Shown: positions 7,377 to 54,950 of the stretch, piece by piece | Position numbering within the stretch: the stretch's first letter is position 1 | Layout: each line of letters begins with the position of its first letter | Virus record (IMG/VR): IMGVR_UViG_3300028920_000001 | Span: 64,001 to 128,000 of that record | DNA: 64,000 bases | Source of the DNA: a virus | Direction: 5' to 3' (one strand) | Made by a program: the position numbers and the translations under genes | Notes under the pieces: generated by a model | What the model was told of the DNA's origin: nothing | The model's database searches: none | Seen by the model: only the letters and a program-made list of their open reading frames with translations

Positions 7377-7547
7377 CTAGTATGCACCGTTACAAAGCCA
7401 CGGTGCCACGGCTGTTTTAGTTATTGCCACTAGTATTGCAATTAACACAAATAAAATCGCAATGATATACCTATCCCATCTGCCAGGACACTTATGCTTA
7501 ATTGCAGGTTCTTTTATTTCACCGCAGTTGTCGCAGTAAGCGCCCAT
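7377..7547 (-). CDS. small zinc-ribbon membrane protein, 56 aa
   Basis: The start is set at the ATG that overlaps the stop of the HNH gene (TAATG). An N-terminal CDNCG...KHKCPG zinc ribbon is followed by one long hydrophobic helix (YIIAILFVLIAILVAI). This gives a membrane-anchored ribbon of unknown role. Confidence 0.6.
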   Translation of the reverse strand: MGAYCDNCGEIKEPAIKHKCPGRWDRYIIAILFVLIAILVAITKTAVAPWLCNGAY

Positions 7548-8128
7548 TACGAAACACAATAGTCCTTCCATGTCGAAGGAGCTTCGGACTCCTCGATTTG
7601 GATAGGAGCTAATGGCAGGTATTTTGGTTTAACTGGCTTAGAAAGCAGCTTCATACCAGCCTGTTGTGGCGTACGATTGGCCTTCTTGCTATTGCAGTCG
7701 TAACAAGAAGTCACAATGTTTGTCCACTCGGTTTTTCCGCCCTGATCACGTGGGATTACGTGGTCATAGTTGAGTTTCGACGCAGGTAACCGTTGTCCGC
7801 AATACTGACAACGGAATTTGTCTCGTGTCAGAACGTTGATCCGAGAAAATTTAGCTCCACGCTTGATATGGCTGATATTTCGCACCAGCGTAACAACAGC
7901 AGGAACCTTAATTAACAAATAGTCTCCACCATCTTGGTTGTGTTGCGCGGGTAGCGCATCCACCAGCTCTTCGAATTCCTCGAGCTGATCGAGTTCGATA
8001 CAACCAATAATTTCATCATATTCCTCGATAACACGGACCTTTCCGAGGAACATTTTAATGACAGCTTCCTGCCAGTTAATGATTTCATGCGGAGTTCGCC
8101 ACGGGGTCAAAACCAACGTTCGCATCAT
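7547..8128 (-). CDS. HNH endonuclease
   Basis: 193 aa. The C-terminal half holds a complete HNH nuclease. CQYCGQRL and a later CYDCNSKK form the structural zinc site, around the catalytic DHVIPRDQGG and the N of TNIV. The N-terminal 100 residues are unrecognised but start with a TPWRTPHEI segment seen in stand-alone bacterial HNH proteins. The gene is visibly more GC-rich than its neighbours, suggesting recent acquisition. Homing, defence or packaging roles are all possible. Confidence 0.8.
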   Translation of the reverse strand: MMRTLVLTPWRTPHEIINWQEAVIKMFLGKVRVIEEYDEIIGCIELDQLEEFEELVDALPAQHNQDGGDYLLIKVPAVVTLVRNISHIKRGAKFSRINVLTRDKFRCQYCGQRLPASKLNYDHVIPRDQGGKTEWTNIVTSCYDCNSKKANRTPQQAGMKLLSKPVKPKYLPLAPIQIEESEAPSTWKDYCVS

Positions 8129-11223: not shown

Positions 11224-11564
11224 GAGTCCATAATGTCTTCTACTTCAGCCATGCGTAAACCAGTTAAAATTACTTCCTTGTAGGTATGAACTCTCGGGTT
11301 TTGCTTTCTTTCTTCACGTTGTTTTTCTAATGCTTCGCTAAGAATCTCAATCTGTGAAGATGTCATCCATTCGGCTCCACAATTAGGACAAACCGGAAAT
11401 TCAAGACTAGCCGGGATTAAATAATTGGGTTCTCCTCGATAACTCCGAGTACGCAAAAGCCCCTTTGAAATAACCATCTCAATTCCGCATTCAGGACACT
11501 TATCCACGTTTCTTATTCTTTCGTTTTGCTTCTTATATTCATGATTCCATAATCGGAGATACAA
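11220..11564 (-). CDS. zinc-ribbon protein with IMDS tag, about 114 aa
   Basis: CPECG and CPNCGAEW pairs, about 37 residues apart, resemble the zinc ribbon of YgiT/MqsA-type antitoxin N-termini. The protein then becomes helical and ends AEVEDIMDS. The true start is unclear: TTG at 11564 or an internal GTG, because the frame overlaps the upstream gene by 26 bases. No toxin partner is evident. Confidence 0.6.
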   Translation of the reverse strand: MYLRLWNHEYKKQNERIRNVDKCPECGIEMVISKGLLRTRSYRGEPNYLIPASLEFPVCPNCGAEWMTSSQIEILSEALEKQREERKQNPRVHTYKEVILTGLRMAEVEDIMDS

Positions 11565-11787
11565 TTTCGTATTCAGCGGTATCTGCCATTAATTTATCTA
11601 ATAAATCACCGGGACGTGAAAATACCCTTTCTAATTGATCTCGAAACCAATCTTCCACATCCTTTACACCATTCTGAACAAATGGGTAACTAGTATGATT
11701 CCAAAGTACAAAATCTGCCTGGGCGTCAGTAATATTTTCACACCCATATTTACTAGCTACTTCTCTGACTAATTCTAATCCAGTCAT
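11539..11787 (-). CDS. tagged hypothetical protein, 82 aa
   Basis: Helical acidic protein ending YEIVSPIMES. It starts just downstream, in transcription terms, of the tmRNA gene. Confidence 0.6.
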   Translation of the reverse strand: MTGLELVREVASKYGCENITDAQADFVLWNHTSYPFVQNGVKDVEDWFRDQLERVFSRPGDLLDKLMADTAEYEIVSPIMES

Positions 11788-11831: not shown

Positions 11832-12185
11832 TGGTGGAGGTGCGGGGAATCGAACCCCGATCTTGCCCAATTTGGTATTACCTTCGTTCACGTGCGTAGC
11901 TGCGTACCCTGCAGCGGGTTTTGTTCACCATCTCACAGAACAGGGGACATACATTAATCTTAGCTGAAGGGCATCGTCGTCCGCAGTTTTTCTTCAGCCC
12001 AGCTCTTGTTGGGTTGGCACCCTCGGGTTACTAGAACTCCTACCTCCGGGCGTCGCCTGCTACTTACGCAGCGATGGCGAGTGAAGCGTTATCGTTCGCA
12101 ACTAACGTTTGCTCGATTTTGAATGGGTCGAGCGCCATTGCACGCAGGAAATACCTCCTTGACCAATCGAAACCAGTTCACCCCC
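11832..12185 (-). ncRNA. ssrA: tmRNA (ssrA), 354 nt
   Basis: The 5' end reads GGGGGTGAACTGGTTTCGA and the 3' end GGTTCGATTCCCCGCACCTCCACCA (shown as two known tmRNA motifs). The 7-bp acceptor GGGGGTG/CACCTCC closes with one G-U pair, and CCA is encoded. The tag frame lies about 86 nt from the 5' end (12064-12099) and reads ANDNASLAIAA then TAA, a canonical proteolysis tag. Length, spacing and tag all fit one-piece bacterial tmRNA. It would rescue stalled ribosomes. A tmRNA on a phage-like genome is notable. Confidence 0.92.
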
Positions 12186-12610
12186 GAGGTTGGTGGCGGG
12201 ACTGGCTGCTCATTGTGAATCGGACGGAATACCGGGGTCATCACAATCAAGCCGGCTAGGTAGTCCCATACCTAGCATCCCGAAAGGATACGACGGACGG
12301 CTCGGACATTTCAGCCCGGTCAAGGGTCTAGGCCCCCTACCGCCCGAAGCTTGGTGGTAATGTCGATACACCTCCTTAGAAAGAAAAAGTGTCCCGGCTT
12401 GCCCTGCCCGGTAGTTAATCGGATCTAGACGGTAGTAGCACCGTTGGGCTTTGGTTTCGCCAGAGTAAGTTTAGTCGTAAAACTTGAAACTTACTCGTCA
12501 GACTTGAACATTCAGGATTGCTCCATTTAGTTTCACTCTCATGACTGGCATAGCTACATTCTCAGGACCGCCGGGACGGCTTAGCCCTGTGCGCATTTGG
12601 ATTTTACAAC
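12186..12610 (-). ncRNA. structured RNA region of unknown class upstream of tmRNA
   Basis: About 425 bases without a convincing gene, visibly more GC-rich than flanking coding DNA and full of hairpins when read on the minus strand: a 10-bp stem near 12460-12495 (GAGTAAGTTT with AAACTTACTC), an ACGGT/ACCGT stem near 12430-12450, a CTAGGTA/TACCTAG stem near 12260-12280, a GATTGTGA/TTCACAAT pairing near 12205-12250, and a UUCG-type loop near 12280-12295. It ends where tmRNA begins, so it could be a long 5' leader or a separate ncRNA. No family was recognised; RNase P consensus segments were looked for and not found. Confidence 0.5.
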
Positions 12611-12630
12611 TGAAAATTTAAAATTTTCAA

Positions 12631-12858
12631 TTATTTAGTAAAAATTTTTTTGGTAGGGAATAACGCTTTGAAATAAGATGCATAGTTCTTCGATTGACTA
12701 ATTGGCTTAGATATAGCTTCAGCCAATTTTTTATATGATTCACCAGTAAGTTCAATTTTACTATCTAATTTGATACCTAAAGATTTAGTATCGAATTCAG
12801 AATTATTGATATATTTTTTAAACTTTTCAAAGTCACCTTTAGCTAGTTTGAATTTCAC
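12631..12858 (-). CDS. small protein, 75 aa, ends KKIFTK
   Basis: Lys-rich helical protein ending LFPTKKIFTK, a variant of the KKIITK ending with different codons from the other copies. Overlaps the end of the upstream gene by 20 bases. Confidence 0.6.
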   Translation of the reverse strand: MKFKLAKGDFEKFKKYINNSEFDTKSLGIKLDSKIELTGESYKKLAEAISKPISQSKNYASYFKALFPTKKIFTK

Positions 12859-13462
12859 CGATAAATAACCTTTCCTTCACTTCTTCTATTTCTTCTTTAG
12901 TAAATTTACCACCATCTTTTTTGGATAAAACCCAACGCCCCGATTTACTTAAATGAGGTGGGGTTAGTATTTCATTATCTTTACATCCAACCTCATCAGG
13001 CAAATCTATTTTGGTGACTCCAATAGTCCCTGCACCTAAATTTTCCCTAAAATCATCGATTTTCTTGAGTACTAAATTGGCACACTTGTTAAACCCATTT
13101 CTTTTAGTTAATTGTAGCTTAGATTCATTTACTTGGTCCTGAATACAACTTACCAATTCGTGATGAACTTTCCTGAGATTGATTCGATGAAGAAATTCAT
13201 CAATAGCCTCGGCATTACCCTCTTTATCCCATTCAGCAAATGTATCGAGAATCAGATCAATTCCTTCTAAATTGGCATCAGTATCTCGGTCTAAAATTCT
13301 TCTACTTATATTATAAATTTTCTGATAAATGTTTCCATCAGTAACTCGAGGCCCTGGATCAAATTCCCTCATAAATGAGGAAGATTTCCGTTCAATTTTT
13401 CTACCGGTAAGAGCTTCAATCTCTTCAATTGATTTGATTTCAATTTCATCCTTGGACATCAT
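12839..13462 (-). CDS. hypothetical protein, 207 aa
   Basis: Acidic N-terminus, central helices and a C-terminal segment (GGKFTKEEIEEVKERLFIGEIQ). No known domain. Overlaps neighbours at both ends, so it is part of one transcription unit. Confidence 0.6.
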   Translation of the reverse strand: MMSKDEIEIKSIEEIEALTGRKIERKSSSFMREFDPGPRVTDGNIYQKIYNISRRILDRDTDANLEGIDLILDTFAEWDKEGNAEAIDEFLHRINLRKVHHELVSCIQDQVNESKLQLTKRNGFNKCANLVLKKIDDFRENLGAGTIGVTKIDLPDEVGCKDNEILTPPHLSKSGRWVLSKKDGGKFTKEEIEEVKERLFIGEIQTS

Positions 13463-13653
13463 TATCTCGTGATAATCTTTTTGGGTTCAGTATAATACAC
13501 CGGAATTGCCCCTTTAGGCATAGGCTCTATATTAAATATTTTTCTGGCAACATTAGCTAAATCAATTCTTCGGCCATATGGTAATTTCATAGATTTATGG
13601 CATTTCCAAGATTCCGAATCTAATGATGTCGGGCCTTTCTTCGCATTTGTCAT
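13462..13653 (-). CDS. small protein, 63 aa, ends KKIITR
   Basis: Basic short protein ending VYYTEPKKIITR, the only Arg-ended copy of this terminal motif. Overlaps the next upstream gene by about 59 bases in another frame, so its start may lie further in. Confidence 0.5.
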   Translation of the reverse strand: MTNAKKGPTSLDSESWKCHKSMKLPYGRRIDLANVARKIFNIEPMPKGAIPVYYTEPKKIITR

Positions 13654-33891: not shown

Positions 33892-35637
33892 TTAAAATTC
33901 TCCTTTGGAGAAAGAAGAAATAAGATCGGGGACTGAAGTATCCATGCCACAAATGTCCAACATTCCAGGATCACGCGGGTCAGCGATGGTAAATTTATCG
34001 CTGGTTAGACCGCAAACAATCAGCCGAGCTTGACGGCCCATTTCCTGCCGATACTTACGCAGGGCCTGAAAGGGCTGCATGCGGCCGGCCCACGTTTCAT
34101 TGTCCGTGTAGACCATGAACGTATCAACTTCGATCTTGTGCTTTAGAGCATACAGCATTGGCTGTGAGCAATCAGTTCCACCGAAGTCTTGACGGGCAGT
34201 GACTTCACAAACCTGATCCAGCCGCATTTTCGGGCTGATATTCAGAACAGTTACGCCACTATCAGGATCGCTGGAAGAATTATTACGACTACCCCAACCC
34301 CAACCGCCACCGGATTCACAAGTGAATCCGATTACCTGCCAATTCTGCTCGAGCTTAGCAGTAACCATGGCCATAGCAGCTGCGGCTTCACGACAAGTCA
34401 AAGTACCACATCCTTGGATGGCAGAGCCCATAGACCCAGAAACATCCAAAGCAAGCAAGTAGTTTTTACCTGTCGGCTGAACTGACTTGAATGCCGTATA
34501 AAATGCAGAATCCATGGCATCAATTACTTGAGTTACTGGGCTCCAGCTGAGTTTACCCTTATCACCATGACCAGATTGATACTGCTTCATAGCAATCAGG
34601 ATCTTCATCGGGTGAAGACGACTCTTACGGATGGCTTCCTCGTTGGCGAACTGTTCAGCTACTTTCTTGGAAGCGGCACTCATCGGCTTGATTAGTCCAC
34701 AAGCCGTCATAACTCCCAAATTACGCGTTAGCGCTGTCATCGGAAGACCACGGTCGAGCAGAGCCTCCCAAATCTCAGGCTCTTTCTTCCACTGAGTCGG
34801 AAGCATCTCATGGCTGAGCCAATATTCATGAATCAACTTGATTACTTCCGCCTTTGATTCGGCCAGCTGGACGGCTTCGAAACCATGGACCAGCTTCGGC
34901 AGAGCTTCCCGATTGAGCTCCTCATAGGAGTCCATACGAGAGTCCTTCTTCTGGCCCTTTCTGAGCACTTCTCGGGCCTCGAGGCTACCATCTTGGGTAA
35001 CCCACCGAAATAGCGCTTGATAAGCTCCGGAATCCATTTCCGGGTCACGACGGACCAATTCAAATGGGTTGGCGTGGCTCAGCTTCAGAAGATCCTTGTG
35101 GGACCATCCATTTCGTTGCTGATACTTGACCAATTGAAGAGCCAACTTATCGGCCGGCTTATCGAGATACCAATTAGCTACAGCATTCCGAAGAGCCCGT
35201 CCCCAACGCCGGAAATTCTCAACATCAGCCGCAAAGTTGAATAGATCAGTACCAATACGGCAAACCTTCGGTAAAGCTTGAAGGGCCGCCTTTCGCACTT
35301 CATTATCCGAATGACCGGCTGCCATGGCGAGACAGAATACTGCCGGATCATTTTTGACCGCACGACCTGCCTGGCTGATTTCAGCGATACGCTTGACTGT
35401 CCGGATACCGTCTTGTTTCAGACACTCCCCAATTGCCTTAGCATTTTCCTTGACGAGCTTTTTCTCGCCAACGTAATAAGTCGAACCCTCAGCACCAAGA
35501 ATCAAAAACCGGTCTAAGCTAGTCCAGCAATCGACCTGCCAAACATAACCGCCTGCACGGTTCTTGACCTGATCCTCACGAGCTTGCTCACTCTGAGAAG
35601 TTACTCGTGGATTGACAATTTCTCCATACCTGGTCAT
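33892..35637 (-). CDS. rsr: Ro60/TROVE-domain RNA-binding protein (Rsr)
   Basis: 581 aa. Start at MTRYGEIV after AAGGAG. The N-terminal about 340 residues are a helical-repeat TROVE ring (DCWTSLDRFLILGAEGSTYY, LAMAAGHSDNEVRKAALQALP, LALQLVKYQQRNGWSH). The C-terminal part is a von Willebrand A domain with an intact MIDAS motif, DVSGSMGS, and FGGTDC. Bacterial Ro60 binds misfolded RNA and Y RNAs and works with RNases; it is often linked to RtcB. RtcB is encoded 28 kb away here. More GC-rich than its neighbours, suggesting acquisition. Confidence 0.92.
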   Translation of the reverse strand: MTRYGEIVNPRVTSQSEQAREDQVKNRAGGYVWQVDCWTSLDRFLILGAEGSTYYVGEKKLVKENAKAIGECLKQDGIRTVKRIAEISQAGRAVKNDPAVFCLAMAAGHSDNEVRKAALQALPKVCRIGTDLFNFAADVENFRRWGRALRNAVANWYLDKPADKLALQLVKYQQRNGWSHKDLLKLSHANPFELVRRDPEMDSGAYQALFRWVTQDGSLEAREVLRKGQKKDSRMDSYEELNREALPKLVHGFEAVQLAESKAEVIKLIHEYWLSHEMLPTQWKKEPEIWEALLDRGLPMTALTRNLGVMTACGLIKPMSAASKKVAEQFANEEAIRKSRLHPMKILIAMKQYQSGHGDKGKLSWSPVTQVIDAMDSAFYTAFKSVQPTGKNYLLALDVSGSMGSAIQGCGTLTCREAAAAMAMVTAKLEQNWQVIGFTCESGGGWGWGSRNNSSSDPDSGVTVLNISPKMRLDQVCEVTARQDFGGTDCSQPMLYALKHKIEVDTFMVYTDNETWAGRMQPFQALRKYRQEMGRQARLIVCGLTSDKFTIADPRDPGMLDICGMDTSVPDLISSFSKGEF

Positions 35638-35671
35638 GGTTTTTTCTCCTTGAACGGCCCGAAATTCAGGC

Positions 35672-35695
35672 AAAAACCCAGATAGCGAAATCTGG
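35672..35695 (-). terminator. hairpin with T-run upstream of Ro60
   Basis: CCAGAT/ATCTGG stem followed on the minus strand by GTTTTT. It lies in the leader of the Ro60 gene, so it is an intrinsic terminator that could attenuate Ro60 or insulate it. Confidence 0.5.
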
Positions 35696-45001: not shown

Positions 45002-45088
45002 TGGCGGAGGGCAGTGGTCTCGATCCACACGGTGTGACCCGCAGACTGCTTAGCAGGCAGCTCCAGTCCCTGACATGGTTTACCCTCC
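45002..45088 (-). tRNA. tRNA-Ser(GCT)
   Basis: Class II tRNA with a long variable arm. Acceptor GGAGGGT/GCCCTCC, G73, CCA encoded, anticodon loop CTGCTAA (GCT). The T-loop reads ATCGAGA, lacking the usual T54. Confidence 0.85.
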
Positions 45089-45110
45089 AAACTAGTTTAC
45101 TTCTTGCTAG

Positions 45111-45195
45111 CGGAAGGCGGAGGTCACGATCCTCACGGTGTTACCCGCACACTGGTTTCGAATCAGGTCCCGGTCCAATCCTGGGTTCACCTTCC
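45111..45195 (-). tRNA. tRNA-Ser(CGA)
   Basis: Acceptor GGAAGGT/GCCTTCC, G73, loop TTCGAAA (CGA), long variable arm, T-loop ATCGTGA (A54/T58 instead of T54/A58). The anticodon stem has two mismatches. CCA not encoded. Confidence 0.75.
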
Positions 45196-45338
45196 AACTG
45201 TTCTTTTTCAGACAGACGAGCCTTCTGCTCCTGCCGAGTTTGATGTACAAAGGAATTTTTATTACCGTTTGCCTTCCAGTATTTACACATCAAGCAACCG
45301 GCTCTACGATTCTTAGGACGACCGCGCTTGTGATTCAT
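45141..45338 (-). CDS. small basic Cys-containing protein, 65 aa
   Basis: The start is fixed by AGGAGG before ATG 45338. Basic N-terminus (MNHKRGRPKNRRAGCLMCKYW) with one Cys pair. The frame runs on into the tRNA-Ser(CGA) gene, so its last codons overlap the tRNA 5' part. Confidence 0.5.
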   Translation of the reverse strand: MNHKRGRPKNRRAGCLMCKYWKANGNKNSFVHQTRQEQKARLSEKEQLEGEPRIGPGPDSKPVCG

Positions 45339-45600
45339 GAAATCCTCCTGCCGGCGCTACCGGCTTGGATGTGATTTCATGTCCGCGCGTAATCATATTT
45401 ACCTTTAGGGAGATGGCCAGCGTCTCCAGGCGAATCAACCTATACAGAATGGGTAATAAAAGGGGAGGCCAAACCCTTTCATCATTCCAAACTAAAGATT
45501 GAAAGCCGGTTGCCCCATTCGCAAGCGAATGCATGATCCAGGCGGAGACGTGAGTTCCTGAATGGACAACCCTGCTCGAGCATCGTTCCAATTTTACAAT
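45339..45600. other. stretch without a convincing gene
   Basis: About 260 bases between the small basic gene and tRNA-Ser(TGA). It contains a CATTCGC/GCGAATG hairpin near 45515. One open frame with a TTG start crosses it on the minus strand but has no supporting feature. Confidence 0.4.
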
Positions 45601-45602
45601 AG

Positions 45603-45687
45603 CGGAGGGTAGAGGTCACGATCCCCAATGCTTTCGCATCGCACTGTGTTCAAAGCAGGCTCCGGCCCATGCCAGGATTTACCCTCC
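45603..45687 (-). tRNA. tRNA-Ser(TGA)
   Basis: Acceptor GGAGGGT/ACCCTCC with one mismatch, G73, anticodon TGA, long variable arm GATGC-GAAA-GCATT, T-loop ATCGTGA. CCA not encoded. Confidence 0.78.
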
Positions 45688-45690
45688 AAG

Positions 45691-45778
45691 TGGCGGAAGG
45701 CGGAGGTCACGATCCCCAATGCTTTCGCATCACATCGCTTTCCAAGCGAGTCCGGGCCCTGCCAACGGTTCACCTTCC
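45691..45778 (-). tRNA. tRNA-Ser(GGA)
   Basis: Acceptor GGAAGGT/GCCTTCC, G73, CCA encoded, stem TCGC/GCGA with loop TTGGAAA (GGA), the same variable arm as the Ser(TGA) tRNA, T-loop ATCGTGA. Completes a full Ser set. Confidence 0.85.
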
Positions 45779-45783
45779 AGTAG

Positions 45784-48492: not shown

Positions 48493-48512
48493 ACGATAAC
48501 CATTAGTGCCCC
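48493..48512 (-). ncRNA. partial copy of the RNA element 3' side
   Basis: GGGGC-ACTAATGG-TTATCG follows the 3' end of the intron-containing tRNA. The region after it (GTATG-TTCAGAT) looks like a worn T-arm. Only half of the element is present. Confidence 0.35.
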
Positions 48513-48633
48513 GAACAGGATTTGAACCTGTAACATCCGGCTTGAATGGCGATAACCCTTATCCTCCGGCCCGAATCGGGCAAAAAATCGGCAAGGATAT
48601 TTTACGGCGCTCTATCCGTTGAGCTATCGGGGC
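48507..48633 (-). tRNA. intron-containing tRNA, anticodon uncertain
   Basis: Acceptor GCCCCGA/TCGGGGC, D-arm GCTC-AACGGATA-GAGC, T-arm ACAGG-TTCAAAT-CCTGT, A73. Removing 54 bases restores a perfect CCGGC/GCCGG anticodon stem. The resulting loop CATTCAA would give TTC (Glu) but has A at position 33, while the D-arm looks Arg-like, so the identity is left open. Confidence 0.65.
48551..48604 (-). ncRNA. 54-nt tRNA intron / candidate ribozyme element
   Basis: TATCCTTGCCGA, TTTTTT, GCCCG-ATT-CGGGC, CGGAG, GATAAGGG, TTATC. CCTT pairs with AAGG below the GCCCG/CGGGC stem. Inserted between tRNA positions 29 and 30. Same length as the insertion at 32021-32074. Confidence 0.65.
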
Positions 48634-48750: not shown

Positions 48751-48880
48751 ACGGGCAAAAAATCGTGAATGGATGTTGAAGGTTGGATTCGAACCAACGA
48801 CCTCCGGATGTTAGTCCGGCGCTCTAACCACTGAGCTACTCGCTCGATTGATGGGCGATAACCCACACACTCCGGCCCGT
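48751..48880 (-). ncRNA. permuted RNA element enclosing a tRNA-like sequence
   Basis: ACGGGC-CGGAG-TGTGTGGG-TTATCG stands 5' and CCATTCACGA-TTTTTT-GCCCGT 3' of a tRNA-like body. The outer ACGGGC/GCCCGT and inner GTGTGG/CCA-TT-CAC pairings match the other elements, so the tRNA sits where the permuted loop would be. Confidence 0.55.
48774..48845 (-). tRNA. tRNA-like gene with mismatched acceptor, possibly inactive
   Basis: The D-arm (GCTC-AGTGGTTA-GAGC), anticodon stem (CCGGA/TCCGG) and T-arm (GTTGG-TTCGAAT-CCAAC) are intact. The acceptor strands GAGCGAG and CTTCAAC barely pair and the anticodon loop has six bases (CTAACA). Either a pseudogene or a precursor needing editing or splicing. Confidence 0.5.
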
Positions 48881-54416: not shown

Positions 54417-54671
54417 AAACGACTCGTTCCAATTGGTTTAGCCAACCGGGCCCTGGAACAAGTCGAATCGAAGAATTTTAAACAATCCGATAAGCACAAG
54501 CTCGGATCACAAGGACTGTTATAGACTGTGCCTTTCCATAACACCTCATCAAAATTCTTCAGAGCGACAGGAGGGTAACGCTCCCTCACATCTTAATAGA
54601 CTCGTCACTTTCCGAATCAGTCGCTAGACAACTACCGGTTTCCCGATTCAGAGTCGGGTCCGGCTCGTTAG
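54417..54671 (-). other. possible structured RNA between two tRNA-Gly genes
   Basis: About 255 bases without a convincing gene. On the minus strand GAAGAATTTT pairs with AAAATTCTTC across about 90 bases, enclosing GGAGCG/CGCTC-type and other short stems, and a 5' CCGGACCCGACTC/GAATCGGG hairpin. It could be a processed ncRNA; a Y RNA for the Ro60 protein is one speculative reading. Confidence 0.3.
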
Positions 54672-54877: not shown

Positions 54878-54942
54878 ACGGGCAAAAAATTGACGGAAGG
54901 CAGTTTCGTTTACAAGGCGATAACCTTCAATCTCCGGCCCGT
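54878..54942 (-). ncRNA. RNA element, permuted form, directly upstream of tRNA-Thr
   Basis: ACGGGC-CGGAG-ATTGAAGG-TTATCG, a short loop, CCTTCCGTCAA-TTTTTT-GCCCGT. GAAGG pairs with CCTTC and ACGGGC with GCCCGT. It ends two bases before the tRNA 5' end. Confidence 0.6.
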
Positions 54943-54950
54943 AAATCTTT

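Follow-up and report, generated by a model that had tools for sequence, protein, structure and literature searches.

What is the GC-rich stretch of DNA that lies directly ahead of the tmRNA gene of this virus, and does it give rise to an RNA of its own? The window analysed (G000:C1:64001-128000, the whole stretch of 64,000 nt) comes from a record that represents a huge bacterial virus genome of 426,960 bp. On its minus strand, 445 nt separate the stop of a 75-aa ORF at 12631 from the start of the tmRNA at 12185. The sequence-only reading had described a structured RNA abutting the tmRNA in the same orientation, and this placement was borne out by ARAGORN and by Rfam model RF00023, which put the tmRNA at 11832-12185 on the minus strand, so that position 12186 adjoins its 5′ end. 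From its sequence, the tmRNA encodes the tag ANDNASLAIAA and its CCA end, and has a G3-U70 acceptor pair. The candidate RNA is likely to extend from about 12597 to 12186, limits which we infer from a promoter-like block (5′) and from the 5′ end of the tmRNA (3′). The features of the locus, in the direction of transcription, are as follows.

12601-12630, minus strand: promoter-like block, TTGAAA-N18-TAAAAT (10/12 consensus), with the AT-rich dyad GAAAATTTTAAATTTTC (12612-12628)
12186-12597, minus strand: candidate structured non-coding RNA, approximately 410 nt, GC 0.52, both ends probable
12391-12577, minus strand: predicted 5′ domain closed by GTCCCGGC/GCCGGGAC (8 bp) and GTCCTG/CAGGGC (6 bp), pair probability 0.98-0.99
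12463-12496, minus strand: predicted hairpin GAGTAAGTTT...AAACTTACTC, 10 bp plus 4 bp, probability 0.90-0.98
12369-12378, minus strand: UAAGGAGGUG, complementary to the usual 16S rRNA 3′ tail
12294-12346, minus strand: stem CGGGCGGT/GCCGTCCG with inner hairpins, predicted high-probability helix
12255-12276, minus strand: hairpin GCTAGGTA[TGGGAC]TACCTAGC, 8 bp, seen in the sequence and predicted as a high-probability helix
12212-12247, minus strand: predicted hairpin ATTGTGA...TCACAAT, 7 bp, probability 0.98
12191-12196, minus strand: CCACCA, 5 nt ahead of the tmRNA 5′ end
11832-12185, minus strand: one-piece tmRNA (ARAGORN; Rfam RF00023, 106.5 bits)

No ORF of at least 60 aa was found within the 445-nt gap and stops were present in all six frames, the longest stop-free run being 86 codons, which had no match in Pfam or PHROG at E ≤ 1. 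A protein-coding gene was rejected, there being neither an open frame nor domain similarity, in agreement with the earlier statement that the stretch holds no gene. It had also been called GC-rich, and rightly: its GC content was 0.522 compared with 0.382 for the window, a value reached by 2.8% of 425-nt windows, and the gap was the biggest GC-rich non-coding gap of the window, tRNA regions excepted.

Comparison with all 4227 Rfam families (E ≤ 10, permissive filters) gave meaningful matches to tmRNA models only, the remainder being evident chance matches. RNase P RNA, group I and group II introns, riboswitches and the other Rfam classes were rejected in the absence of any covariance-model match at E ≤ 10. 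The suggestion that the stretch might be a relative of GOLLD or ROOL was not supported, as neither covariance model matched even at E ≤ 10 and the gap, at 445 nt, is shorter than the sizes cited for these RNAs; membership of these classes was rejected on both counts. The permuted tmRNA model (RF04321) matched across the junction with 33.5 bits, below its cut-off of 47, a match explained by the tmRNA 5′ half that the two forms share, with the 3′ half intact downstream. A permuted tmRNA was rejected on this score, on the lack of a T-arm upstream and on the intact downstream 3′ half within the RF00023 match. In many other viral contigs (L083-L118), a T-arm and CCACCA precede the tmRNA 5′ half by at most 30 nt, which is the permuted tmRNA arrangement.

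Y RNA and YrlA were also rejected, since the box of the Ro60-binding type, GGTTATCG, is absent from 12186-12630, although copies are present elsewhere in the window, at several sites. The window encodes a Ro60 homologue (33892-35673) and an RtcB ligase (63317-63997). Two tRNA genes on the minus strand, 31979-32105 and 48507-48633 (Rfam 48-49 bits), have an anticodon arm lengthened by about 55 nt, which include a Y-RNA-like module, TTTTTGCCCG..CGGGCCGGAGGATAAGGGTTATCG, and may be tRNA/Y-RNA chimeras or YrlA-like RNAs; more Y-RNA-like motifs of the form GGGCCGGAG...GGTTATCG lie among the tRNAs on the same strand (32106-32182, 48846-48880, 54880-54946 and 59228-59289). Four tRNA-Ser-like genes, also on the minus strand (45691-45779, 45600-45688, 45108-45196 and 45002-45089, with the anticodons GGA, TGA, CGA and GCT by eye), have atypical T-loops (ATCGTGA/ATCGAGA) and are missed by both ARAGORN and Rfam. 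Between two tRNA-Gly genes, about 250 nt of hairpin-rich, non-coding DNA (54417-54670, minus strand) is RNA-like in appearance and had no Rfam match.

The whole-region MFE of the minus strand was ordinary for its composition and not significant (z −1.36 to −1.67 in two runs); the plus strand gave z −0.06 to −0.21, and in the one run that covered both strands the minus strand folded better (z −1.67 vs −0.21). This test has little power here, since the adjoining tmRNA, a true structured RNA, itself scored only z = −0.82. Perfect helices 8 bp or longer (within 220 nt), on the other hand, were enriched, with four found compared with 0.73 expected; as many arose in 9 of 2000 dinucleotide shuffles, and among 100 evenly spaced windows across the 64 kb only two had an equal excess, both of them tRNA/Y-RNA-like regions. 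Because the helix count was picked only after the MFE test had failed, this enrichment is supporting evidence and not proof. The description of the stretch as hairpin-dense can accordingly be kept for its perfect helices, but not for its overall folding energy. The further description as an unclassified structured RNA agrees with the Rfam result (no match at E ≤ 10), the lack of any sign of coding, the helix enrichment and the promoter-like block at the 5′ edge, and the observation as a whole is confirmed as real.

Among the predicted helices, the stem CGGGCGGT/GCCGTCCG starts within TTCGGGCGGTAGGGG (12334-12348). The TGGGAC loop of the hairpin at 12255-12276 is complementary to the 3′-terminal AGTCCC, and a pseudoknot between the two is possible. 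An alternative long-range pairing of positions 188-207 with 346-371 (numbered from 12600) would compete with the 5′ domain, the 7-8 bp helix sets 200-207/346-353 plus 188-194/365-371 and 24-31/203-210 being mutually exclusive.

Two short motifs lie outside this framework of helices. UAAGGAGGUG (12369-12378), without a second exact copy in the window, might base-pair with the 16S rRNA tail; it has no ATG at a usable distance, and as no enrichment of AAGGAGGT was found across the window, the match may be due to chance. Around CCACCA (12191-12196), no cloverleaf was apparent by eye, and neither an ARAGORN tRNA nor an Rfam tRNA match was obtained.

Judged by consensus alone, the promoter-like block is not significant, since three such sites were found where 3.1 were expected and AT-rich DNA gives chance matches. 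The wider block TTGAAARTTN{0,4}AATTTTCAGKTGTAAA, by comparison, has exactly two copies in the 427-kb genome (reversed-pattern control, none), the second of which (32210-32186) is directly ahead of a Y-RNA-like/tRNA-like unit. The pattern was derived from those same two sites, and its weight therefore lies in its absence from the rest of the genome. With a looser regular expression, a similar block, AATTTCTGTTGTAAT, was detected directly before the tmRNA of the relative G019, as the single match in 35 kb there. This rare block seems to precede stable-RNA units in the lineage and could help to find more such RNAs in relatives.

Homologues were sought in several collections. No relative of the stretch was found by blastn against INPHARED and PLSDB, and no homologue by exact-pattern scans of IMG/VR; a similar scan of GTDB genomes returned one deltaproteobacterial tmRNA (tag ANDNAGLALAA) that lacks a similar upstream RNA. 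The search for relatives via the neighbouring ORF gave none, 36 viral loci with CCACCA before the tmRNA held no homologue, and the candidate RNA was not found in five tmRNA-bearing phages traced through EF-Tu. Matches to LR745208.1 and phage Tunturi_5 were rejected as sub-threshold or chance matches within coding DNA. The EF-Tu gene of the phage itself (61069-62268, minus strand) has its closest viral relative, 77% identical, in IMGVR_UViG_3300031673_000209, which carries a tmRNA with the tag ANDNADLAVAA.

A terminase profile search led to a family of huge phages, with a tmRNA in 13 of its 47 records. The terminase of IMGVR_UViG_3300030616_000297 is 100% identical to that of the present phage, and other members show 55-63% terminase identity. 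The closest full genome, G019 (IMGVR_UViG_3300032782_000001; 436 kb, 61% terminase identity), is syntenic at the tmRNA locus: upstream lie homologues of the ORFs at 12839-13462 and 13462-13653 of the window, and downstream a homologue of the ORF at 7547-8128. Only 148 nt lie ahead of its tmRNA, and these contain AGGAGG and TTCGGGCGGCAGGGG, which differs at one position from TTCGGGCGGTAGGGG (12334-12348) in the present stretch; in a scan of 66 phage records, exact matches to the 15-mer pattern were confined to 12334-12348 and the G019 leader. Though strong by eye, the similarity is only suggestive, since the 148-nt leader ranked 40th among 1876 random G019 windows (approximately 2%), and 112th to 137th with other scoring; common ancestry of the TTCGGGCGGTAGGGG/TTCGGGCGGCAGGGG element is possible. 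In the 12 other tmRNA-bearing relative records, some of them near-duplicates, tRNAs or protein genes lie ahead of the tmRNA, with nothing obvious that resembles the candidate RNA.

A C-terminal feature also recurs among the ORFs of the window. About 30 of the 187 window ORFs of at least 60 aa end in a tail of the type hydrophobic-x-x-[IV]-M-[EDN]-S (e.g. 11539-11787, 57927-58310 and 62315-62680), and six of the 187 end in KI[IVF]T[KR]. The former tail also occurs in the relatives G019 and G020 (for example in L237/L238 of G019, and in L239:594-1022). Since its codons vary (GAA/GAG/GAT/AAT; TCA/TCT/AGT/AGC/TCG), selection looks to be on the tail peptide, and such tails are possibly a sorting or packaging tag.

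Taken together, the best explanation, to which we give an even chance of being correct, is a structured RNA, specific to the lineage and about 410 nt long, that is co-transcribed with the tmRNA, freed by RNase P and kept as a folded companion non-coding RNA. The computed results behind it are the non-coding nature of the stretch, a GC content like that of structural RNAs, the helix enrichment, the abutting co-orientation with the tmRNA, and the rare block common to this locus and the Y-RNA/tRNA-like unit. The better folding of the minus strand and the similar block ahead of the G019 tmRNA also speak for it. Against it count the lack of a convincing homologue, with just 148 nt and a similarity at the level of about 2% at the syntenic G019 locus, the non-significant MFE, the chance level of promoter matches and the post hoc nature of the helix test. 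Transcription of the minus strand would start from a promoter at about 12630-12601, and the candidate RNA would make up the 5′ half of a joint precursor with the tmRNA. RNase P, described in PMC3985003 as the enzyme that makes tmRNA 5′ ends, would cut at 12186/12185 to give the tmRNA 5′ end and release the upstream RNA, which would most likely persist as a folded partner of the tmRNA, its stability being presumed.

Much the same arrangement would be expected if the stretch were only an extended leader, at the 5′ end of the tmRNA precursor, that aids folding, processing or regulation of the tmRNA and is degraded after the RNase P cut, and sequence alone does not distinguish such a leader from a separate released RNA. 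We regard it as possible but rather unlikely. The position abutting the tmRNA, within what would be the same transcript, suits a leader, as do two possible sets of helices, 7-8 bp long, that exclude each other; G019, with a tmRNA, a similar promoter-like block and a 148-nt leader containing AGGAGG and TTCGGGCGGCAGGGG, fits a leader of variable length. However, 410 nt of GC-rich sequence is long for a leader in a compact phage genome, and the 12 tmRNA-bearing relative records with tRNAs or protein genes at this place have no such leader. More doubtful still is a relic without present function, whether a decayed gene, the degenerate remains of a tRNA array or a recent acquisition of GC-rich DNA from a host. 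The failure to find homologues and the CCACCA remnant ahead of the tmRNA point in this direction, and the syntenic G019 element holds a T-arm-like GGGTTCAAGTCCC, which would allow descent from a degenerate tRNA; the enriched perfect helices, the tight fit of the promoter-like block with the tmRNA and the lack of similarity to tRNA models or protein families speak against a relic.

That the stretch belongs, as a remote relative, to one of the large RNA classes already described (GOLLD, ROOL, RNase P RNA, group I intron, permuted tmRNA or Y RNA) is very improbable. Such membership would suit a stretch that adjoins a tmRNA in a tRNA-rich phage, and the sub-threshold tmRNA_permuted match of 33.5 bits over the junction could be cited for it, but this idea is largely refuted by the chance nature of all Rfam matches at E ≤ 10 other than those to tmRNA models, while the permuted match is accounted for by the tmRNA 5′ half, with its intact 3′ half downstream, and the Y-RNA GGTTATCG box is missing here though present elsewhere in the window.

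If the companion RNA is real, the ribosome-rescue unit of a huge phage would gain a further RNA gene, and the phage tmRNA would seem to be expressed jointly with a second structured RNA. A bolder version, which we consider improbable, is a phage non-coding RNA of a new class, produced as one transcript with the tmRNA, that carries UAAGGAGGUG without a start codon, acts in trans on ribosomes and takes part in a takeover of translation alongside the phage tmRNA, EF-Tu and tRNAs; this ribosome-directed role is an idea prompted by the reported binding of GOLLD to ribosomes (PMC12286853), and not a result. The finding in itself is of modest interest, and side observations from the same genome, such as the C-terminal tags and the Y-RNA modules within tRNA anticodon loops close to the genes for Ro60 and RtcB, may deserve more attention.

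Among known systems, GOLLD and ROOL resemble the candidate RNA in being GC-rich, non-coding and adjacent to stable-RNA genes in phage genomes; their location near phage tRNA genes is matched here by the adjoining tmRNA and 24 further ARAGORN tRNA calls in the 64-kb window. They differ in size, the tmRNA-adjacent candidate being about 410 nt long, compared with 659 nt for a ROOL example and more than 800 nt for many GOLLD RNAs (PMC12286853). A multimeric RNA nanocage is a feature of GOLLD and ROOL. Permuted tmRNA (RF04321) likewise has CCACCA a few bases ahead of GGGGGTGAACTGGTTTCGA, but at the present locus the ordinary 3′ half of a one-piece tmRNA is in place and no T-arm lies upstream. The 5′ leader of a tmRNA precursor is similar in being co-oriented and directly upstream, and would similarly be split off by RNase P; in contrast to the 148-nt leader of G019, the candidate is approximately 410 nt long, GC-rich and helix-rich. 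With the Ro60-binding Y RNA and YrlA there is a link through the genome itself, which encodes Ro60 together with Y-RNA-like motifs, and in which one such unit is preceded by the same rare promoter-like block as the candidate RNA.
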